Shown here one piece after another: positions 1 through 35,435 of a DNA stretch of 64,000 nucleotides. Made by a program: the position numbers and the translations under genes. How positions within the stretch are numbered: position 1 is the stretch's first letter; each line of letters begins with the position of its first letter. Origin of the DNA: Halomarina pelagica (GTDB taxonomy: Archaea; Halobacteriota; Halobacteria; Halobacteriales; Haloarculaceae). The notes under the pieces were generated by a model. That model was not told the origin of the DNA, did no database searches, and saw only the letters and a program-made list of their open reading frames with translations. The stretch covers positions 744,001-808,000 of the forward strand of contig NZ_CP100454.1 in NCBI RefSeq assembly GCF_024228315.1. Direction: 5' to 3'.

Positions 1-943
1 CGTCGTAGGCGCGGCCGACCGCCATGTGTACGGTGTCGCCCATCTTCTCGTCGAAGAGCATGTTGTAGGTGAAGCGGTCGATCGCGCGGTTCATGCCGAT
101 GCCGAGTTCGCCGAGCCGCCGCGCCCCCTCGTCGGTGTTCAGGATCTCCTTCAGGACCTCCTCGTTCTTGTCGGCCCCGTGCTCGACCACCTCGCCGCCC
201 TCGAAGACGAGGCGCGCGCCGGTCACCTCACGGCCCTGCTGGTAGACCGGCTTGTCGAACAGGACCTCGCCCTCGACGCTGTCGGGGACGGGCGCGGTGA
301 ACACCTCCCCGCCGGGGAGGTTGTACTCGCCGTAGTCGTTCTGCGTGCGCATCCCGTCCACGCTCATGGAGAGGTCGGTCGTCTCGCCCGAGACGATCCG
401 CACCTCGCTCGCGGCGTCGAGGCGCTCGACCATGTTCGCCTGGAACTCCCGCTGGGCGTCCCAGTCCCGGTTGATGGCGTCCCAGACGAAGTTCTCGTAC
501 GCCGCCGTGCTCGTCTCGGCCAGTTGCGCCCCCGCGGGGGTGGGAAACTGCGTGAGACACCAGCGCTTGCCGAGGACGGTCTCCTGGACGGGCTGGTAGG
601 CGCGCGAGTGGGCGGCGTTCGTCTCGGTGGGCACGTCGCTCGTCTCGGTGGCGTTCTCCTTCGCCCGGACGCGAATCACGCGGTCCGCGCGCTCGTAGAG
701 CGCCTGCAGGTGCTCCGGCGTCCGCAGGTCGTCCTCGTCGACGGCGCGGAGGTACGCGCGCTCTGCCCGGTCGCTCTTCCCGAGGAAGACGGGCGTCGCG
801 CCGACGTCGCCGATGGCCTCGTGGAGCGCGACGACGAGGTCCTCCGCGACGGCGGGGGCGGCGACGACCACGAGGTCGCCCGGCTGTACGTCCGTCGAGT
901 GCGAAACGACGATCTCCGCGTGCTCCCTGATCCGTGGGTCCAT
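1..943 (-). CDS. Aminopeptidase, M29 family (partial, runs off left edge)
   Basis: Metal-dependent exopeptidase of the AmpS/PepS/aminopeptidase T type, which removes N-terminal residues from peptides in the cytosol. About 314 residues are visible; M29 proteins usually have 360-410, so the last part, with the final His/Asp metal ligands, lies outside the window. Family-typical stretches are LVFEGGEVV, RRLGELGIGMN and NMLFDEKMGDTVHMAVG. The start is the ATG at 943 (MDPRIREHAEIV). A TATA-like GGGGTATC at 968-975 lies 25-30 bases upstream, so the mRNA is probably leaderless. It is divergent from the threonine aldolase gene. Family assignment is firm; substrate range cannot be read from the sequence. 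Confidence 0.85.
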   Translation of the reverse strand, partial: MDPRIREHAEIVVSHSTDVQPGDLVVVAAPAVAEDLVVALHEAIGDVGATPVFLGKSDRAERAYLRAVDEDDLRTPEHLQALYERADRVIRVRAKENATETSDVPTETNAAHSRAYQPVQETVLGKRWCLTQFPTPAGAQLAETSTAAYENFVWDAINRDWDAQREFQANMVERLDAASEVRIVSGETTDLSMSVDGMRTQNDYGEYNLPGGEVFTAPVPDSVEGEVLFDKPVYQQGREVTGARLVFEGGEVVEHGADKNEEVLKEILNTDEGARRLGELGIGMNRAIDRFTYNMLFDEKMGDTVHMAVGRAYD

Positions 944-1032
944 GCGTCGACCTCCCGCCGCGTCGCCGATACCCCTTTCGGAGTCGCGGACGGACCACGG
1001 CGTATTTGACGCCGGGCGGGCTACGAGCGGCC

Positions 1033-2040
1033 ATGATCGACCTCCGAAGCGACACCGTCACCCGGCCGAGCGACGCGATGCGCGAGGCCGCCCGCGACGC
1101 CGAGGTGGGCGACGACGTCCACCGCGACGACCCCACGGTGGCCGAACTCGAGGCGCGCGCGGCCGACCTGCTGGGCAAGGAGGCGGCGCTCTACGTCCCC
1201 AGCGGCACCATGGGCAACCAGATCGCCGTCCGCGTCCACGCCGACCGCGGCGAGGAGCTGATCTGCGAGCGCGAGTGCCACGTCTACAAGTGGGAACTCG
1301 GGGGCGTCGCCCAGCTCTCGGGCGTCCAGCCCCGCCCGGTCGACGGCGGCGAGCGCGGCGCGCTCACCCCCGGGCAGATCGAGGAGGCGTACGTCGAGGC
1401 GAGCAGCCACCGGCCGGGGACGGGCCTCGTCGCGCTCGAGAACACCCACAACAGCAAGGGCGGCGTCGCGCTCGCGCCGGAGGTGCTCGACGCGGCGGCC
1501 GAGACCGCCCACGACCTCGGCGTCCCCCTCCACCTCGACGGCGCGCGCGTCGCCAACGCCGCCGTCGCACGCGGCGTCCCCCTCGATCGCGTGGTCCGCG
1601 AGGTGGACTCCGTGATGACCTGCCTCTCGAAGGGCCTCGGCGCGCCCGTCGGGTCGATGCTCGCGGGCGACGCCGAGTTCGTCGAGCACGCCCGCCGCGT
1701 GCGGAAGCTCTTCGGCGGCGGGATGCGCCAGGCGGGGATGATCGCCGCACCCGGCCTGCTCGCGCTCGAGAACGTCGACCGACTCGCCGAGGACCACGAG
1801 AACGCCCGGGCGCTCGCGGAAGGGCTCTCCGACCTCCCCGGCCTCGTCGTTCAGGACCCCGAGACGAACATCGTCCTCGTCGAGACCGAGGAGCCCGCGA
1901 GCGCGTTCCTCGACCGGATCGGCGAGGTCGGCGTCGCCGGCTCCGAGTTCGGCGAGCACACCGTCCGGTTCGTCACCCACTGGGACGTCTCGCGCGACGA
2001 CGTGGAGACCGCCGTCGAGCGCATCGCCGAGATCCGCTGA
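1033..2040 (+). CDS. ltaE: Low-specificity L-threonine aldolase
   Basis: PLP-dependent fold-type I enzyme that cleaves L-threonine or allo-threonine to glycine and acetaldehyde. At 335 residues it has the normal family length. It begins MIDLRSDTVTRPS, the family signature. The PLP lysine is K200 in MTCLSKGLGAPVGS, and the cofactor aspartate is in HLDGAR (about 168-172). The ENTHN segment at 136-140 is also typical. An in-frame start exists further upstream, but ATG 1033 gives the conserved N-terminus and sits about 28 bases after a TATTTGAC box, the usual leaderless spacing. It is monocistronic; the next gene is a small one on the other strand. Confidence 0.92.
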   Translation: MIDLRSDTVTRPSDAMREAARDAEVGDDVHRDDPTVAELEARAADLLGKEAALYVPSGTMGNQIAVRVHADRGEELICERECHVYKWELGGVAQLSGVQPRPVDGGERGALTPGQIEEAYVEASSHRPGTGLVALENTHNSKGGVALAPEVLDAAAETAHDLGVPLHLDGARVANAAVARGVPLDRVVREVDSVMTCLSKGLGAPVGSMLAGDAEFVEHARRVRKLFGGGMRQAGMIAAPGLLALENVDRLAEDHENARALAEGLSDLPGLVVQDPETNIVLVETEEPASAFLDRIGEVGVAGSEFGEHTVRFVTHWDVSRDDVETAVERIAEIR

Positions 2041-2131
2041 TCGGCGCACGCAGTGCGCCCGCTCGCGGCCCACACTCCCGTGCTCGCCGACTCCTCACGC
2101 CCGTCGACGTTCCGCGTTCCGCCACCGGCGC

Positions 2132-2260
2132 TCACCGCCGTCCGTCGTACCCCTCCCGGAACGCGAGCATCGTCCGGCGGAACATGAGGTAGAGCGCGAC
2201 GAGTATCGCGACGACGGTGCCGATGATGACGACGAGAACGGGGTCGAGACCGAAGACCAT
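2132..2260 (-). CDS. Small single-span membrane protein (42 aa), unknown function
   Basis: A 42-residue protein starting MVFGLDPVLVVIIGTV. Residues about 7-27 form one hydrophobic helix, followed by a basic/aromatic tail (LMFRRTMLAFREGYDGRR). It resembles the short haloarchaeal membrane proteins usually annotated only as domains of unknown function. Support comes from the strongly hydrophobic segment, clean start and stop, and a regulated-looking promoter upstream: a TATA-like ATATACC at 2334-2340, a palindrome at 2307-2324 over the predicted transcription start, and another at 2342-2357. The 5' leader would be about 50 bases. Its function is unknown. Confidence 0.6.
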   Translation of the reverse strand: MVFGLDPVLVVIIGTVVAILVALYLMFRRTMLAFREGYDGRR

Positions 2261-2306
2261 GCCTGACGTGACGGCTCGCCGAGCAAAGCCGTTTCGGGCC
2301 GGATCG

Positions 2307-2324
2307 CTCAAACGGTCGTTTGAG
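2307..2324. promoter_or_regulatory. Palindromic operator candidate over the transcription start of the 42-aa gene
   Basis: CTCAAACG-GT-CGTTTGAG is a perfect 8+8 palindrome. For the leftward small gene, the ATATACC box at 2334-2340 predicts transcription starting near 2310, inside this palindrome, which is where a repressor would block RNA polymerase. The regulator is not identified. Confidence 0.45.
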
Positions 2325-2341
2325 CCATCCGCGGGTATATG

Positions 2342-2357
2342 CTACGTGCTCACGTAG
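2342..2357. promoter_or_regulatory. Second palindrome directly upstream of the TATA box of the 42-aa gene
   Basis: CTACGTG-CT-CACGTAG is a perfect 7+7 palindrome immediately outside the leftward TATA-like box (2334-2340), in the position of the BRE or an activator site. Together with the site at 2307-2324 it brackets the core promoter. Confidence 0.4.
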
Positions 2358-2476
2358 TTGCTCCCGTCGCTTCGGCCCTCCCCGTCTCGACCGCCCTCCT
2401 TCTCGTTTCGACTCGGCAAGAGAGCTACCCGAACTCGGTGAGACCACACAACCACACATGTGCCATGCCAGGTGCG

Positions 2477-2506
2477 GCTTCAACCCCACAGGGGTTCGTC
2501 TGAACC
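2477..2506 (-). CRISPR. Solitary CRISPR-type repeat (no array)
   Basis: Read on the minus strand, these 30 bases begin GGTTCAGACGAACCCC and end TGTGGGGTTGAAGC. This matches the haloarchaeal subtype I-B repeat as I recall it from Haloferax volcanii (GTTTCAGACG...GATTGAAGC) at 27 of 30 positions. The differences are at repeat positions 2, 16 and 23. The internal hairpin AACCCC-TGT-GGGGTT is intact. No second repeat occurs at spacer distance (about 66 bases) on either side, and no cas genes are in the window. Confidence 0.65.
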
Positions 2507-2552
2507 GTTCTCCCGCACGCGGGACGGCGAGTCGAGCGCCGTCCGCCGTCGC

Positions 2553-3050
2553 TCACACCTCGAACTCGTCGATGGTGCTCCCGTCCGGTCTGACGAGTCG
2601 CCCCCGGAGGGGGTCGAGTTGGAGTTCCGCGTGCGCGGGTTCGTACCACCGCGGGTCCGCGTGGCTGCCGGGGTTCAGGACGGGGACGGACCCGAGGGAG
2701 TCGAACTCGGGTCGGTGGGAGTGGCCGACCACGACGAGGTCGGCGTTCTCCTGGCGACCGAGCATGGCGAGCGCCGTCTCCGTGTGCTCGTGCCCGTGGG
2801 CCATCGCGATGCGGACGCCGCCGAACTCGACCGTGCGGGTCCTCGGGAGGCGCTCGCGAACGGCGGGGGTGTCGTTGTTCCCGACGACGCCGACGAACGC
2901 GGCGCTCTCGGACTCGAAGGCGTCGAGCACGGATTCGGTGAGGAAGTCGCCGGCGTGACAGACGAGGTCGGCCTCCCGAACCGCCTCCAGGGCGCGCCCG
3001 TCGAGGCGGTGGCCCTCGCGACCGTGCGTATCGGAGATCACCGTGATCAT
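2553..3050 (-). CDS. YfcE/MJ0936-type metallophosphoesterase
   Basis: Calcineurin-like phosphoesterase of the short archaeal MJ0936/YfcE group, a cytosolic enzyme that hydrolyses phosphodiesters with two metal ions. At 165 residues it is typical for the group. All ligand motifs are visible: D7 and H9 in SDTHG, D35 in HAGDF, the GNND stretch at 57-60, H85 in AHGHEH, and H110/H112 in GHSHRPE. The start is ATG 3050 (MITVISDTHG); an in-frame GTG-like start four codons earlier adds nothing conserved. The gene is divergent from the CDF transporter. The natural substrate is unknown. Confidence 0.88.
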   Translation of the reverse strand: MITVISDTHGREGHRLDGRALEAVREADLVCHAGDFLTESVLDAFESESAAFVGVVGNNDTPAVRERLPRTRTVEFGGVRIAMAHGHEHTETALAMLGRQENADLVVVGHSHRPEFDSLGSVPVLNPGSHADPRWYEPAHAELQLDPLRGRLVRPDGSTIDEFEV

Positions 3051-3135
3051 GGATCCGATCACGACGCCGAGCCTCGAATCGCTGGCGGTCTCCCCGGCGG
3101 TAGCTCTTTGGCGGATGCTCGTCTGTCGGTAGGTA

Positions 3136-4077
3136 ATGGCCAGCAGTAAGTCCGTCGTCCTCGCCGCTCTCTTCGCGAACGCGGCGATCGCGGTCCTGAA
3201 GTTCGTCGGCTATCTCCTCACGCGCAGTCCCTCGATGCTCGCAGAGACCTATCACTCCATCTCCGACACCGGCAACCAGATCTTCCTCCTGTTCGGCATC
3301 CGCTACAGCGGCAAGGAGGCCAGCCGCGAACACCCGTTCGGGTACGGGAAGGCGCAGTTCTTCTACTCCTTTCTGGTCGCAGTCCTCCTCTTCGGCATCG
3401 CGGGGTGGGAGAGCGCCAGCCACGGGTACGAGGCGATCGTGCACCCCCACCCGATCAGCCCGGGGACGACGACGGTCGCGGGCGTCACGTTTCCGAACGT
3501 CTGGGTGAACTACGCCGTCCTGCTCAGCGCGATCGCCTTCGAGAGCTACGCGCTTCGAAAGGCGTTCCAGGGCCTCAGCGCGCAGATGCGCGAGCACGGC
3601 TGGTCGACCATCCGAGAGGCGTTCCGCAAGACCAGCGACGTGACGACGCTGACGGCGTTCACGGAGGACTCGATCGCCATCGGCGGTGCGGCGCTCGCGC
3701 TCGTCGGCATCTTCCTCTCGCGGTGGACCGGAAACCCCATCTACGACGCCGTAGCGTCCTTCCTCATCGGGCTCCTGTTGATGGGCTTCGCGCTCGCGCT
3801 CGCGTGGGAGAACAAGCGCCTGCTCATCGGCGAGAGCCTCCCGAGCGACGAGGAACAGGCCCTCAAGGGCATCGTCGCCCGATGGGACGGCGTCCGCCAC
3901 ATCGACGACTTCCGGACGGTGTTCTTCGGCCCCGAACGACTCGTCGTGACTGCCGACGTCAGCTTCGAGGACGGCCTGGAGACGGAGCAGATCGACGACC
4001 GCATCACCGCCATCGAACGCGCGCTCATCGAGCACGAACCGCAGATCCGGAAGGTGTACATCGAACCCGAGCGGTGA
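3136..4077 (+). CDS. Cation diffusion facilitator (CDF) metal efflux transporter
   Basis: Membrane proton/cation antiporter that exports divalent metals such as zinc, cobalt, manganese or iron. It has 313 residues with about six membrane helices and a cytoplasmic C-terminal domain after about residue 225. The first metal-site pair is visible as H40 and D44 in TYHSISDTGNQ, and the second helix pair includes FTEDSIAIGGA. The HPFGYGKAQFF loop between helices 2 and 3 is characteristic. The C-terminus (RLVVTADVSFEDGLE) is the usual ferredoxin-like dimer domain. It begins MASSKSVVLAALFAN. The stop lies just before repeat element 1. Metal specificity cannot be inferred safely. Confidence 0.9.
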   Translation: MASSKSVVLAALFANAAIAVLKFVGYLLTRSPSMLAETYHSISDTGNQIFLLFGIRYSGKEASREHPFGYGKAQFFYSFLVAVLLFGIAGWESASHGYEAIVHPHPISPGTTTVAGVTFPNVWVNYAVLLSAIAFESYALRKAFQGLSAQMREHGWSTIREAFRKTSDVTTLTAFTEDSIAIGGAALALVGIFLSRWTGNPIYDAVASFLIGLLLMGFALALAWENKRLLIGESLPSDEEQALKGIVARWDGVRHIDDFRTVFFGPERLVVTADVSFEDGLETEQIDDRITAIERALIEHEPQIRKVYIEPER

Positions 4078-4090
4078 ACGACCACCACCA

Positions 4091-4886
4091 CCACCTTTTG
4101 CTGCGCGGGGGTCCTTCGGACCCCCCGCTGGCAAAATCTGGACCAAAAGCCTGCGTCACCCCCTCGCTTCGCTCGGGGATTCCTTGGCCCGCTCGCTCGG
4201 CTTCGCCTCGCTCGCGGATATCGTGCCGGACGGTAGCGCGGAAGGTCAGGGGCCGCCGTCGCGACCGTTTCCACCATCGTGCTTCGATTCCCCCGCGACT
4301 GAGCGAACGCAGTGAGCGAAGGAGCGGACGGGTCGAACCCACCCTGTGAGCCGAGAGGACGTGGAAGCATGCCGGACTCACGGTGCTCGTCCGGCGGAGG
4401 AGGTGAGATGCGGTTTCTGTGGACGTTTCGAGACCGCACCTTCGGCGTACACAGCAGGGCACCTTGGCGAGCAGACGACGCCGCGGCGAGGGTGGTTCGC
4501 GGGGCGTGGCGTCGCGCAACCGCGAGCGCCCCGCGACGATTCTCACGTCACACGGACGCTGGTCCCCCTCTTGGATATAAAGATACGGACAGATCAAACG
4601 ATCCGACCGACTCGACCGCCACCGCCGACGCCAGCGCGACACCCGCGAGCGACCGAAGGGAGCGAGCGGGCCAAGGAACCCCCGAGCGCAGCGAGGGGGT
4701 GATGCCGGCTTTTGCTCCAGCTTTTACCAGCGAGGCGACTTCGCCGCCGAGCGTGGTTCGAGAGACGCCAGAGGCGTCTCTCGTCATCTCGGAGCAGCAA
4801 AGCTGCTCCGACGAGTCATCGGAAGACCGGAGGTCTTCCGAGATCTCGAAAGGCGCGGAGCGCCTTTCGGCGACAGCAAAAGGTGG
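4091..4886. repeat. Composite intergenic repeat element, copy 1, with 13-bp terminal inverted repeats
   Basis: The whole 849-base gap between the CDF gene and the helicase is filled by this element. The ends are exact inverted repeats, CCACCTTTTGCTG (4091-4103) and CAGCAAAAGGTGG (4874-4886). Each end carries a module A (reverse at 4091-4215, forward at 4636-4886) with the anchor TTTTG-TCCAG-TTTTGCCAG and a CCCCGAGCGCAGCGAGGGG palindrome. Between them, module B (about 4467-4608) holds two inverted repeats, 4498-4504 with 4529-4535 being CGCGGGG/CCCCGCG, and a TATA-like GATATAAAG at 4573-4581. No protein gene is credible inside. Related copies lie at 17.6, 33.4 and 35.8 kb. Confidence 0.7.
4760..4869 (+). 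repeat. Array of four perfect triloop hairpins
   Basis: Four consecutive perfect stems of 10 bp with 3-base loops: GAGAGACGCC-aga- (4760-4782), TCGGAGCAGC-aaa- (4789-4811), TCGGAAGACC-gga- (4819-4841) and CGAAAGGCGC-gga- (4847-4869). They fill the loop of module A in repeat copy 1, where other copies have a single hairpin. They end about 60 bases before the helicase start codon. All pairings were checked base by base. Confidence 0.75.
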
Positions 4887-17589: not shown

Positions 17590-18061
17590 CCGCGAGCGAG
17601 GCCGACGGCCAAGCGAGCGGACGCGCCGAATCCCCGAGCGCAGCGAGGGGATGAGATGCGGCGGTGGTCCAGGTTTTGCCAGGGAGCGAGCGCAGCGAGC
17701 GACCGCGGCAAAACGTGGGCGTGCAGGCGACGCCGCGGCGGGGGCGGGATCGCGGGACGTGGCGTCGCACAACCGCGAAGCGCCCCGCGACGGGAGTCAG
17801 CGCACGGGGACACTGGTTCCGTTTTCTGTTATAAAGATACGGCCCGAGTAAACGATCCGACAGCCCCGACCGGATCATCGGCATCAGCGCGCACCCGTGA
17901 GCGAGTGCAACGAGCGAGCGGACCGACGGAACCCCCGAGGAGCGCCGGAGGCGCGACGAGGGGGTGGAGGAGGGTTTTGATCCAGCTTTTGCCAGCGAGC
18001 CGCCAGCGACACGCTCCGCGGTCGCTGGCGAGCGAGCGCAGGAAAAGGTGGCGCTGCAAAA
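17590..18061 (+). repeat. Composite intergenic repeat element, copy 2
   Basis: Fills most of the 557-base gap after argF. Order A-B-A with both A modules forward: A at about 17590-17722, B at about 17715-17862, A at about 17890-18061. B matches copies 1 and 3, including GCGACGCC...GGCGTCGC, CGCGGGA (17751-17757) opposite CCCCGCG (17783-17789), and a TATA-like GTTATAAAG at 17828-17836. The right A loop carries a perfect 10-bp stem, CGCCAGCGAC (18001-18010) with GTCGCTGGCG (18021-18030). It ends next to the stop of the leftward membrane gene. No coding capacity is credible. Confidence 0.65.
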
Positions 18062-30319: not shown

Positions 30320-30877
30320 CTAAACCGACAGAGGGAACGCGGCGACCGTCTCGTACCGGGGCCCGTCGGGCGTGAGGGTGCTCTCGGTGAGGCGCACCTC
30401 GTCGATGCGCATCGCGCCCACGTCGGGGTCGCGTTCGTCGAGCACGCGCAGGACGCGCTCCTTCCCGCCGGCGTGATCCATCCGCGCGATCGTGGCATGC
30501 GGGGTGAAGTCGTGGCGTTCGGGGTCGAACCCCAGCGCGACGGTGCGCTCCTCGCACGCCTCGTGGAGGCGCGTCAGGTCCGTCGCCCCCTCGCGGACGC
30601 CGAGCCAGACGACGCTTACGTACGAGCGCGACGGGAAGACGCCGTAGCCGCCGACGTGCGCCTCGAACGGGGCGACGCCCGCCTCCTCGACGGCCGCTGC
30701 GAGCGCGTCCTCGACGGCGGGGACGCGCGACTCGGACACCTCCCCCAGGAACTTGAGCGTGACGTGGACCCCCTCGGGATCCGTGAGTCTGAGGCCGTCG
30801 ACGTCCGCGAACGGTTCCTGCGCCGCGCGGATCGCGTCGGCGAGCGGATCCAGGTCGACGCTGACGAACAGTCGCAT
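30320..30877 (-). CDS. thpR: RNA 2',3'-cyclic phosphodiesterase
   Basis: 2H phosphoesterase of the ThpR/LigT family that opens 2',3'-cyclic phosphates on RNA. It has 185 residues. Both catalytic motifs are canonical: H38-V-T40 in VHVTLKFLGEV and H127-A-T129 in PHATIARM. It begins MRLFVSVDLDP. ATG 30877 is about 27 bases from the palindromic TTAA box at 30903-30906 that also serves the divergent TPR gene. Compare the atypical 2H protein at 7.2 kb. Confidence 0.92.
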   Translation of the reverse strand: MRLFVSVDLDPLADAIRAAQEPFADVDGLRLTDPEGVHVTLKFLGEVSESRVPAVEDALAAAVEEAGVAPFEAHVGGYGVFPSRSYVSVVWLGVREGATDLTRLHEACEERTVALGFDPERHDFTPHATIARMDHAGGKERVLRVLDERDPDVGAMRIDEVRLTESTLTPDGPRYETVAAFPLSV

Positions 30878-32040: not shown

Positions 32041-33318
32041 ATGAGCACGCAAGAGATCGAGCCGCTCGACGTCGAGCGCATCCGGGAGGACTTCCCCATC
32101 CTCGCGCGGAGGGTCGGCGGCGACGTGACCGTCCCCGGCGAGGGACCGGGCGACGACACGCCGCTCGTCTACCTCGACAACGCCGCCACGAGCCAGACCC
32201 CCGAGCAGGTCGTCGAGGTCATCGCCGACTACTACCGGAGCTACAACGCCAACGTCCACCGCGGCATCCACAGCCTCAGCCAGGAGGCCAGCGTCGCCTA
32301 CGAGGAGGCCCACGACCGCGTCGCGGAGTTCGTCGGCGCGGACGGCCGCGAGGAGGTCGTCTTCACGAAGAACACCACCGAGGCGATGAACACCGTCGCC
32401 TACGCGTGGGGGCTCGCCGAACTCGGCCCCGGCGACGAGGTGATCCTCACGGAGATGGAGCACCACGCCTCGCTCGTCACGTGGCAGCAGATCGGGAAGA
32501 AGACCGGCGCGGACGTGCGGTACGTCCGGGTCGACGAGGAGGGCCGCCTCGACATGGACCACGCCCGCGAACTCGTGACTGACGACACGCGCATGGTCAG
32601 CGCCGTCCACGTCTCCAACACCCTCGGGACGGTCAACCCGATCGAGGAGCTGGCCGACCTCGCGCACGACCACGGCGCGCTGATCTTCGTCGACGGCGCG
32701 CAGTCGGTCCCTAACCGCCCCGTGGACGTGAAGCGACTTGACGCCGACTTCTTCGCCTTCTCCGGGCACAAGATGTGCGGTCCGACCGGCGTCGGCGTCC
32801 TCTACGGCAAGCGCCACCTGCTGGAGGAGATGCAGCCGTACCTCTACGGCGGCGAGATGATCCGCAAGGTCACCTACGAGGACGCGACCTGGGAGGACCT
32901 CCCGTGGAAGTTCGAGGCCGGCACGCCCGTCATCTGCCAGGGCATCGCGCTCGCGGCGGCCTGCGACTACCTGGACGACATCGGCTTGGAGCGCATCCAG
33001 GCCCACGAGGAGGGGCTGGCCGAGTACGCCTACGACCGCCTGACCGAGTACGACGACGTGGAGATCTACGGCCCGCCGGGCGACGACCGCGGCGGCCTCG
33101 TCGCGTTCAACCTCGACGGCGTCCACGCCCACGACCTCTCGAGCATCCTCAACGACTACGGCGTGGCGATCCGCGCGGGCGACCACTGCACCCAGCCGCT
33201 GCACGACACGCTCGGCGTGGCCGCCTCCGCCCGGGCGTCGTTCTACCTCTACAACACCAGGGAGGAGGTCGACACGCTGGTCGAGGCGGTGGACGCGGCG
33301 CGCGACCTCTTCGCGTAG
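32041..33318 (+). CDS. sufS: Cysteine desulfurase SufS
   Basis: PLP enzyme that takes sulfur from cysteine for iron-sulfur cluster assembly. It has 425 residues. The PLP lysine is K244 in FFAFSGHKMCGPTG, and the persulfide cysteine is C383 in RAGDHCTQPLH. VYLDNAATSQTP and SYNANVHRGIHSLSQEAS are class II (SufS/CsdA) motifs. The start is ATG 32041. The IscU-like scaffold gene lies 491 bases downstream; repeat copy 3 occupies the gap. Such pairs are usually adjacent in haloarchaea, so the repeat probably arrived later. Confidence 0.95.
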   Translation: MSTQEIEPLDVERIREDFPILARRVGGDVTVPGEGPGDDTPLVYLDNAATSQTPEQVVEVIADYYRSYNANVHRGIHSLSQEASVAYEEAHDRVAEFVGADGREEVVFTKNTTEAMNTVAYAWGLAELGPGDEVILTEMEHHASLVTWQQIGKKTGADVRYVRVDEEGRLDMDHARELVTDDTRMVSAVHVSNTLGTVNPIEELADLAHDHGALIFVDGAQSVPNRPVDVKRLDADFFAFSGHKMCGPTGVGVLYGKRHLLEEMQPYLYGGEMIRKVTYEDATWEDLPWKFEAGTPVICQGIALAAACDYLDDIGLERIQAHEEGLAEYAYDRLTEYDDVEIYGPPGDDRGGLVAFNLDGVHAHDLSSILNDYGVAIRAGDHCTQPLHDTLGVAASARASFYLYNTREEVDTLVEAVDAARDLFA

Positions 33319-33354
33319 CCGCCGTCCCACCCGCCACTCGCGTCGGCGCGCCGT

Positions 33355-33766
33355 ACCGCAAGCGACCAACGGGAGCGAGCGGGCCGAGGAGCGACCAGAG
33401 GGAGCGACGAGGCTTTTGGTCCAGCTTTTGCCAGGGAGCGAGCGAAGCGAGCGACCGCAGCAAAAGGTGGGCGAACAGGCGACGCCGCGGCAGAGTTCGC
33501 AGGGCGTGGCGTCGCGCAACCGCGGGCACCCTGCGACGAGAGTCAGCGCACGGGGGCCTCTGGTCCCGCTCTCAGTTATAAAAGTACGGACGGATCGAAC
33601 GATTCGAACGGTCGAGCACCACCGATAGTACCAGCGGAGCACCCGCGAGCGAGTGCAACGAGCGAGCGGACGCGCCGAACCCCCCGAGCGCAGCGAGGGG
33701 GTGAGGTGCGGTTTTGGTCCAGATTTTGCCAGCGGGCGGCGAAGCCGCCCGCACAGCAAAAGGTGG
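33355..33766 (+). repeat. Composite intergenic repeat element, copy 3
   Basis: Fills the sufS-iscU gap in A-B-A order, both A modules forward. A modules end in CAGCAAAAGGTGG at 33458-33470 and 33754-33766. B (about 33468-33608) has GCGACGCC/GGCGTCGC, the stem CGCAGGG (33498-33504) with CCCTGCG (33529-33535), and GTTATAAAA at 33575-33583. Compared with copy 1, this stem shows G-to-A on one side and C-to-T on the other, a compensatory change. The right A loop has a perfect 9-bp triloop stem, GCGGGCGGC-gaa- (33732-33752). It ends 44 bases before the scaffold gene. Confidence 0.7.
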
Positions 33767-33809
33767 GAGAGCAACCCTTTTCCCCCGCACTACCGTACCG
33801 ACGACAACA

Positions 33810-34226
33810 ATGGGACTCGGCTCGGACATGTACCGGCAGCAGATCCTCGATCACTACAAGAACCCGCGCAACCGCGGGACGATCGAGGACGCGACCTTCT
33901 CGCACGTCGGCGAGAACCCCTCCTGCGGCGACACCATCCGGATGGACGTGAAGCTGGCCGACGACGGGGAGACCATCGAGTATGTCGCGTTCACGGGCGA
34001 CGGCTGCGCCATCAGCCAGGCCAGCGCGTCGATGCTCACCCAACGGTTGCCGGGCACGACCCTCGACGAACTCGACGCGATGGACCGCGACGACGTCACC
34101 GACATGCTCGGCGTCGACATCAGCCCGATGCGTATCAAGTGCGCCGTGCTCGCGGAGAAGGTCGCCCAGGACGGCGCGAAGATCCACACCGGCGAGATCG
34201 AGATCGAGAAGACCCAGACTGAGTGA
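33810..34226 (+). CDS. Fe-S cluster scaffold, SufU/IscU type
   Basis: Scaffold protein on which clusters are built with sulfur from SufS. It has 138 residues. The three ligand cysteines are C39 (NPSCGD, with D41), C66 (DGCAISQASASM) and C111 (RIKCAVLAEK). The start is ATG 33810 (MGLGSDMYRQQILDHYKNPRN). No good TATA box is near; the TATA-like box of repeat module B at 33575 would give a 200-base leader. It is followed immediately by the left end of an IS1341-type element. Confidence 0.92.
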   Translation: MGLGSDMYRQQILDHYKNPRNRGTIEDATFSHVGENPSCGDTIRMDVKLADDGETIEYVAFTGDGCAISQASASMLTQRLPGTTLDELDAMDRDDVTDMLGVDISPMRIKCAVLAEKVAQDGAKIHTGEIEIEKTQTE

Positions 34227-34238
34227 CTTCTCCCCGCC

Positions 34239-35435
34239 TTAAACGGCGGGGCTTCCTGTTTCAACGACGCGCTTTGCAGACACAGGTGTATCCACAGGGA
34301 GCGCAGTCTCCGCAGGCGTTGATTCGGGACAGCCCGTCCCTATCTGGTCGAGAGCACGACCAAGAACCGTCCACGCCGCATTCGCATCCCTGTCCGCCTC
34401 GAAGCCGCACGACGGACAGGAGTGTTCACGCACCCACAACGGTTTGTCGGTCTCGACCCCACAGACCGCGCATTCTTTGGTCGTTCCTCTCGGATTCACG
34501 GCGACGAAGTGCGTGCCTTCGCGTTCACACTTGTATTCGAGCATCCGCAGGAATGTTCCCCATGCCGCACCCGCTCGGTTCCGCGAGTTGCCCGGTAGCT
34601 CGATTAAGCCCTTCGTGTTCAAGTCCTCGACCGCCACGAGGTCGTACTCCCGCGCGTAGTAGTTCGAGAGTTTGTGCAAGAAGTCGCGGCGTTTCCGTTT
34701 CAGGTCGGCGTACCGCCGGGCCACGACCATCCGCTGTTTCTCCCAGTTTGCAGAGCCGTGCTCTTTCCGCGAGAGGTCGCGCTGTGCGCGTTCCAAGCGG
34801 TCGCGCTCGGCGGAGAGGTCGAGTGACCCCACGGCGGTCCCCTCCGTGTCGTGCGCGTACTTGCAAATCCCCACGTCGATTCCCACGACGTCAGTGAGTG
34901 TCTCAGGCTTCTCGGGCGGATCGTCGGGTGTTTCGATGCCGAAGATGGCGAACCACTCGCCGGTCGGTTCTTTCTTCACCGTCACTTGCTTGAGGTTCGC
35001 ACCCTCCGGGATGTCCCGGTGCAGTCGGAGGGGTATCTCACCGATTTTTGAGAGTCGGAGCACAGGCCGGCCACTCGTGTTCTTGAGTTCGAAGCCAGAC
35101 TGTCGATACGTGAACGACCGGTACTCGGGTAGTGCTTTCCACTTCAGTCGACCGACCTTCCGCCCAGCATCTTTCGCGTCTTTCAGCCGTGAGAGGTTGT
35201 CGTACAACCGCTCAACGACGTTCTGAAGCGTGCGAGAATAGAGGTCGGAGAGTTCAGTCCACCACGTCTTGAGTGACGGGAGCTGATTGATTTCACCGTA
35301 CTTCGTCGTCCCGTCGATACGGTTGAGTCGGTGGAGGAAGTGGTTGTACACTTGCCGATACAGGTTGCGGTGTCGGTCCAACGTCTCTCGGTGAGTGTCG
35401 GACGGGTTGAGCCGGTACCGGTAGTTGTAGCGCAT
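34239..35435 (-). CDS. tnpB: RNA-guided endonuclease TnpB
   Basis: RuvC-like nuclease of the TnpB family, ancestor group of Cas12, guided by an RNA from the element's own end. It has 398 residues, intact. Catalytic residues are D187 (GIDVGI), E270 (VAVEDLN) and D350 (DRDANAAW). The zinc ribbon has C322, C325, C340 and C343. The N-terminal domain (RHRNLYRQVYNHFLHRLN) is typical. ATG 35435 follows the DUF2080 gene by three bases. The stop TAA lies in the loop of the end hairpin, consistent with the guide RNA overlapping the 3' end of the gene. Confidence 0.95.
   Translation of the reverse strand: MRYNYRYRLNPSDTHRETLDRHRNLYRQVYNHFLHRLNRIDGTTKYGEINQLPSLKTWWTELSDLYSRTLQNVVERLYDNLSRLKDAKDAGRKVGRLKWKALPEYRSFTYRQSGFELKNTSGRPVLRLSKIGEIPLRLHRDIPEGANLKQVTVKKEPTGEWFAIFGIETPDDPPEKPETLTDVVGIDVGICKYAHDTEGTAVGSLDLSAERDRLERAQRDLSRKEHGSANWEKQRMVVARRYADLKRKRRDFLHKLSNYYAREYDLVAVEDLNTKGLIELPGNSRNRAGAAWGTFLRMLEYKCEREGTHFVAVNPRGTTKECAVCGVETDKPLWVREHSCPSCGFEADRDANAAWTVLGRALDQIGTGCPESTPAETALPVDTPVSAKRVVETGSPAV

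Follow-up and report, generated by a model that had tools for sequence, protein, structure and literature searches.

A probable multi-copy pseudoknot RNA gene in Halobacteriales under a promoter common to leaderless pilus and DNA-processing genes

In the present study, a repeat of the Halomarina pelagica genome, termed module B in an earlier note, was found likely to be a multi-copy, minus-strand gene for a structured small noncoding RNA, placed under a control common with a set of pilus and nuclease genes. We give this reading a probability of about 0.72, in the absence of transcript data. The RNA family is apparently undescribed and, as inferred from sequence alone, probably regulatory; among the open-licence papers searched, no title or opening of an abstract describes it. 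The window, which is the whole stretch of 64,000 nucleotides that was analysed (contig NZ_CP100454.1, positions 744,001 to 808,000), contains three copies of the element by model search, at 4464-4590, 17716-17844 and 33468-33591. On the minus strand the order is a TATA box, a CGnGRCCA-like box, [A/G]TG, one codon, a stop, the pseudoknot and a conserved tail. After the stop come helix S2, a conserved GCGGGTGTG-like loop, helix S1, a variable loop and the tail CCTGTTCGCC, and the RNA would be about 80 nt in all. The features are as follows.

33468-33591, minus strand: copy 3, whole element with promoter, start-stop head, pseudoknot and tail (134 bits with model R1, 102.7 bits with model R2)
33576-33582, minus strand: copy 3, TATA box TTTATAA, first base 33582, with BRE-like bases just upstream
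33561-33568, minus strand: copy 3, conserved CGGGACCA box between the TATA box and the start, common to leaderless protein genes
33543-33551, minus strand: copy 3, start-stop head GTG CGC TGA; the first base of the GTG, 33551, is the predicted transcription start
33527-33536, minus strand: copy 3, RNA 5' arm of helix S2 (the stem of the earlier note), supported by covariation
33508-33515, minus strand: copy 3, RNA 5' arm of helix S1, supported by covariation
33497-33506, minus strand: copy 3, RNA 3' arm of helix S2, supported by covariation
33479-33486, minus strand: copy 3, RNA 3' arm of helix S1, supported by covariation
33468-33478, minus strand: copy 3, conserved tail CTGTTCGCCCA, from the alignment of diverse elements
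4464-4590, minus strand: copy 1 element, TATA box from 4581 and GTG ACG TGA from 4551
4527-4536 and 4497-4506, minus strand: copy 1, arms of helix S2
4508-4515 and 4475-4482, minus strand: copy 1, arms of helix S1
17716-17844, minus strand: copy 2 element, TATA box from 17835 and GTG CGC TGA from 17805
17781-17790 and 17750-17759, minus strand: copy 2, arms of helix S2
17761-17768 and 17727-17734, minus strand: copy 2, arms of helix S1

The earlier note had placed the third copy in a span of 33355-33766, which proved too wide: the element kept in other genera is 33468-33591, and the remainder consists of other repeats. These are GC-rich palindromic repeats ending ...GCAAAAGGTGGG (the flanking modules of the earlier note), at 33355-33467 and 33592-33766, with further ones around 4123-4198 and 4660-4735 and at 17665-17715. 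They border many Halomarina copies, occur also without the RNA element, and rarely stood next to the copies that were read from relatives. Copy 3 and its repeats lie between an aminotransferase class-V gene (cysteine-desulfurase-like) and a NifU-like gene (32041-34226). An IS605-type TnpB gene with Cas12f1-like TNB and OrfB domains (34239-35435, minus strand) directly follows the NifU-like gene; no RNA element was found at its end, the three copies being the sole model matches in the window. A TnpB omega-RNA or IS605 end was thus not borne out within the window, and the tnpB genes of other genomes were outside the scope. Elsewhere in the window, a single Rfam CRISPR-DR24 match (2477-2506, minus strand, 40.7 bits) is accompanied by no repeat array in 1-4200, and a tRNA-Val (cac) called by ARAGORN (30512-30602, minus strand) is absent from the Rfam search results and is probably false.

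The fold was already visible in part in the sequence. The earlier note had reported stem arms CGCGGGG (4498-4504) and CCCCGCG (4529-4535) in copy 1 and CGCAGGG (33498-33504) and CCCTGCG (33529-33535) in copy 3, equally spaced, with a G-to-A change matched by C-to-T so that the stem is kept. All of this held, the spacing being 31 nt in both copies, and among 38 aligned copies of the own genome the pair in question (alignment columns 41 and 73) is G-C in 35, A-T in 3 and half-changed in none. This stem is only one helix of two. The second helix, S1 (GCGACGCC/GGCGTCGC), interleaves with S2, so that the arms run S1 5', S2 5', S1 3', S2 3' on the plus strand, and the structure is an H-type pseudoknot with helices of 9-10 and 7-8 pairs and no simple hairpin. 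Folding restricted to nested pairs gave S2 together with weak long-range end pairs; the latter showed no covariation and were dropped.

Both of the interleaved helices are backed by covariation, which establishes membership among H-type pseudoknots. The own-genome alignment (A1) took 38 of 41 blastn copies (L021:2179, L019 and L040 were left out, the 5' part being missing or unalignable), and here 10 of 18 pairs are changed on both sides, a value reached in 0 of 500 shuffles; slid versions of the helices gave 0-3. In the diverse alignment (A4), which kept 74 of 78 sequences without L134:6886, L156, L040 and L048, the figure rises to 17 of 18 pairs, with 222 double-changed cells against 57.0 (sd 6.5) in shuffles and a covariation score of 0.489, compared with 0.061-0.121 for slid helices. 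Conservation is poor at the outermost pair of both helices, left unpaired in 35 and 39 of these 74 sequences. Furthermore, when mutual information was ranked with no structure assumed in 118 non-redundant elements from other genomes, pairs of the two helices filled 10 of the top 12 places. The kinship of the sequences was left uncorrected in the wobble, shuffle and mutual-information tests, and no tree-aware test such as R-scape was included when covariation across the additional genomic copies, which the earlier note had proposed as a check, was run and found present. A fixed locus beside tfb (the TFIIB gene) gives a comparison of a different kind: six genomes carry five different S2 sequences there, every one of which pairs, with at most one mismatch per helix besides wobbles. 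Orthology at this locus rests on both flanks for the own copy (L046) with L069, L143, L176 and L193, and on the upstream flank only for L120.

The strand of the RNA was inferred from its wobble pairs. In the minus-strand reading of 111 placed elements (7 of 118 could not be placed), the internal pairs include 69 G.U and 16 A.C (binomial 5e-9, uncorrected for relatedness). Since RNA tolerates G.U, which a reading of the wrong strand turns into A.C, these counts favour a minus-strand RNA. The plus-strand reading of 68 elements outside the genus gives 8 G.T and 43 A.C; for the own copies alone the signal is weaker, with 7 G.T and 23 A.C, 14 of these 23 falling at one pair. A plus-strand RNA, which was our initial assumption and the basis of models R1 and A1, was overturned by the wobble counts together with the promoter. 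For the same reason the single mismatch that the earlier note had seen in copy 2 is recast: its plus-strand A.C reads as U.G on the minus strand, so copy 2 has no mismatch in the inferred RNA. The suggestion of the earlier note that the module works as folded nucleic acid, probably RNA, is supported by cross-genus covariation, the structure-free column ranking, the tfb-side locus and the excess of G.U.

The elements have the layout of haloarchaeal leaderless transcription units. From the first base of the TATA box to the [A/G]TG there are 30-31 nt in 147 of the 151 elements in which both were found, and haloarchaeal promoter geometry puts the transcription start of leaderless units at that distance. 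The element qualifies as such a unit, with the reservation that the 5' end is predicted and has been inferred without transcript evidence. The start-stop head ([A/G]TG, one codon, stop) is present in 174 of 194 elements, a set that excludes identical, short or truncated cores as well as two chance matches from bacteria, and in 69 of 74 of the diverse alignment. At the stop position the 194 elements have TGA in 172, TAA in 15, TAG in 2 and other triplets in 5. In 12 of the 20 elements without the head, ATG or CTG stands directly before the stop, and 11 of these 12 belong to one genus; rows L069 and L143 of the alignment likewise lack the intervening codon. There was no excess of terminators: of 153 elements, 24 have TTTT in the 120 nt downstream, compared with 28 on the mirror side.

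Two alternative readings place the element in the service of a neighbouring gene. Gene orientations are approximate, having been assigned with a crude ORF scorer; the next gene downstream was convergent in 130 of 191 copies and co-directional in 61, and outside the own genome the stop of the convergent gene lies at a median of 27 nt from the tail. According to the first alternative, the module is a plus-strand cis element that belongs to the convergent gene ending just beside it and serves as its 3'-UTR, terminator or processing signal. The frequency and closeness of such a gene speak for this reading. Against it stand the wobbles, which favour the minus strand, the conserved minus-strand TATA box, promoter box and start, the occurrence of the same promoter before protein genes, and the 61 copies that lack such a convergent gene, and we regard it as very unlikely. 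The second alternative is that the downstream gene uses the module as a 5' leader, an attenuator or a riboswitch-like region. It is favoured by the 61 co-directional copies and is also very unlikely, because the downstream gene is convergent in the other 130; co-directionality, which a riboswitch or mRNA leader would require, was met in those 61 only, by the same crude gene caller.

The minus-strand promoter is not confined to the RNA genes. The strict pattern TTTAT-N9..12-CGnGRCCA-N6..9-[A/G]TG gave 40 distinct sites (43 rows) in the own genome and none when reversed. Of these sites 37 lie within elements and 3 before leaderless genes that begin at the [A/G]TG of the pattern, which encode a HerA-like ATPase, an archaeal type IV pilin and a DUF3006 protein; the DUF3006 gene is close to a gene for a metallo-beta-lactamase/lamin-tail protein. 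Of the 55 own elements, 37 match the pattern and 18 do not. Window copies 1 and 2 are among the latter, their promoter box deviating from it. In the order as a whole, the variant RTGNNNV, in which the third codon is barred from beginning with T, matched in 71 of 117 genomes. It gave 154 matches in total, compared with 12 when reversed; RNA elements still account for at least 12 of the 154 (11 in the own genome and one in G141). We read 90 of the 154 sites, 30 as returned and 60 picked non-randomly to spread over families. Thirteen sites with ORFs under 60 aa, one of them an RNA element, were left unscanned, and the proteins of the remaining 77 were scanned for families: DUF7382 (14), DUF7283 (7), PLD-domain nuclease (7), DUF6735 (6), Cas4-like (6 by Pfam, 9 by NCBIfam), T2SSE ATPase (5), NucS_N (3), pilin (2), HNH repeat (2) and HerA (2). 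NCBIfam names at E 0.001 include NucT (6), TadA-like ATPase (5) and ComGA (3). Several of the NCBIfam-based names may fall under the curated cut-off, as did the cas4 match in the single member whose score was compared (31.8 of 65 bits), and one PanB and one thioesterase are apparent chance members.

These results show that the same promoter precedes leaderless type IV pilus and DNA-processing genes across the order. The label of a DNA-uptake regulon for this pilus and nuclease set is an inference that rests on family names. In G037, G075 and G136 there are promoter matches without an RNA match, within the limited number of candidates scored per genome, and on this ground the RNA is viewed as an accessory member, dispensable to the gene set. 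As further observations on this promoter, DUF6735 genes recur under it (the 6 of 77 are taken by eye as L272, L274, L275, L285, L286 and L333), and so do short leaderless ORFs of 48-55 aa, one set of which ends in MDNAYARATHAR[A/V] and the other in IRLWAR (L311, L314 and L315, and L266, L267 and L270).

The element is widespread within one order. The own genome carries at least 55 strong copies (E 2e-10 or better), all on one of its seven contigs; the count is a lower bound, as only 150 of the 10,270 candidates were scored. Among 59 genomes sampled from relatives, the own included, 37 had matches, with up to 56 per genome. Across the order Halobacteriales, 177 of 293 sampled genomes (about 60%) and 54 of 87 genera had matches; only the best 12 candidates per genome were scored, so absences and counts are bounds. 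In the phylum sample, 28 of 294 genomes matched, all 28 within the same order, with at most the 12 best candidates scored per genome (59 in the relatives' sample). A pattern scan of named genomes returned 105 stretches, 88 haloarchaeal, with Haloarcula species among the named carriers, and 17 bacterial, and R1 scoring took 80 of these loci plus 18 others. None of the ten bacterial stretches given to R1 matched; R2 was given all 17 and scored two of them at 24-25 bits. Rfam 15 had no match at or above its gathering cut-off at the three window copies; when six element loci were searched with E values as high as 5 allowed, there were only two overlaps, both below threshold and in the opposite orientation, namely sR40 with 21.6 of 50 bits and DUF3800-XI with 17.7 of 37.8.

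With such copy numbers, the module could instead be a MITE- or SINE-like repeat, selfish or mobile, that has captured a promoter and whose fold serves transposition with no host function. In its favour, the 55 own copies are mostly alike, many of them adjoin other repeats (modules A and C), and the matches per genome range from 0 to at least 12 and up to 56. Several findings stand against it. In the genus g64, each of the 15 genomes carries a pair of copies with E values of 1.4e-8 or better, from the best 150 candidates scored per genome, and the neighbours agree in the five loci read; the tfb-side copy has homologous flanks in several genera, and compensatory changes have occurred at this fixed locus; viral contigs gave 0 matches with one exact pattern, and a plasmid collection gave no match with one query. 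By eye only, no terminal inverted repeat of the kind expected of a MITE was visible in the aligned ends. We consider the mobile repeat unlikely. The two copies of genus g64 (L213-L239) are diverged paralogues, about 105-160 kb apart in ten genomes that have both on the same contig, near opposite contig ends in G311 and on different contigs in four genomes. In the loci that were read, one lies between HAD-like and zinc-ribbon-like genes, as judged by eye; the other lies beside a YcaO gene and often carries a different tail, CTGTCAGC.

The possibility was also considered that the element acts at the level of DNA, for instance as an uptake sequence or through a single-stranded fold used in import or recombination. 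This would agree with a promoter common with a DNA-uptake-like gene set and with the highly conserved terminal 12-mer, and a single-strand DNA fold could likewise give strand-biased wobbles. Our first count of the 12-mer was biased since the loci had been chosen by the same 12-mer, and an unbiased count lent no support. The 12-mer is not scattered outside the elements: of 9 matches across 736 kb, 3 are pieces of elements (one counted twice) and the other 6 represent one coding site in related loci. Such a signal would furthermore leave the element's own promoter and start-stop head unexplained, and it is very unlikely.

Returning to the reading as an RNA gene, several known systems offer partial parallels. 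The CiaR-controlled csRNAs of streptococci are several homologous sRNAs under one promoter type with a link to a DNA-uptake regulon. The haloarchaeal RNA resembles them in having several homologous small RNAs per genome, one promoter type and, by inference, a link to DNA-uptake-like genes, and differs in its archaeal promoter, pseudoknot, start-stop head and far larger copy number. What has been observed of this likeness is the promoter common with pilus ATPase, pilin and nuclease genes, with no expression or uptake data. In Haloferax volcanii, rancRNA_s194 is an intergenic RNA of 97 nt that is bound to the ribosome (PMC6104027). Our RNA would likewise be a haloarchaeal intergenic RNA of about 100 nt, and would share ribosome binding with s194 if the inferred engagement of ribosomes holds. 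For sRNA194, which we take to be the same RNA, homologues were reported in 0 other haloarchaeal genomes (PMC3956466, Table 5), in contrast to a pseudoknot family with matches in 177 of 293 genomes; identity of the two is disfavoured by this reported lack of conservation (PMC3956466), without a direct sequence comparison. H. volcanii also has untranslated ribosome-occupied sRNAs (PMC12482152), and the relevant sections of that paper mention no pseudoknot, multi-copy family or common promoter; here too no sequence comparison was made. Lambda bar minigenes and AUG-stop uORFs have a start codon followed by a stop at once or after one codon, as the present head has; the known ones lie within mRNAs, whereas here the arrangement heads a structured multi-copy RNA. 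ToxI, the RNA of type III toxin-antitoxin systems, is an H-type pseudoknot RNA that occurs in repeats. The haloarchaeal RNA is also a repeated H-type pseudoknot and differs in that its genes are dispersed and have their own promoters; no common neighbouring gene was noticed, although no dedicated search for toxin genes was made.

As to function, we lean slightly towards the view that the RNA is made together with the promoter-sharing gene set and that this set is probably for DNA uptake, both expression and uptake being inferred. By a similarly narrow margin, it may act in trans as a regulator amplified by gene dosage, and not as the leader of a neighbouring gene, which is again an inference. 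The leading idea for the mechanism is an engagement of ribosomes, which we hold only tentatively and with more doubt than conviction, as it is inferred with no expression or ribosome-association data. Ribosomes would load on the 5'-terminal start codon of the RNA, as they would on the leaderless mRNAs of the gene set, and would meet a stop one codon later with the pseudoknot near their leading edge. The RNA may then stay bound to initiating ribosomes or compete for them, and translation of the co-expressed leaderless mRNAs would be damped. Against this idea, the head, loop and tail showed no complementarity to 16S or 23S rRNA above chance, and the start-stop head supports it only indirectly. 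A bolder reading, unlikely as a whole, is that the promoter of a DNA-uptake regulon has been duplicated dozens of times before a decoy RNA that mimics the 5' end of leaderless mRNAs by its start, single codon and stop. The decoy family would capture initiating ribosomes, with the pseudoknot against their leading edge, and translation of leaderless mRNAs might be shut down or timed during DNA uptake, tuned by the number of gene copies.

Overall, about 60% of the genomes sampled from the order carry a probable structured RNA family that has apparently been overlooked. To archaeal RNA biology it offers a pseudoknot backed by covariation and a case in which start-stop translation at a leaderless 5' end can be tested. 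In addition, the promoter yields a candidate set of haloarchaeal genes that may serve DNA uptake.
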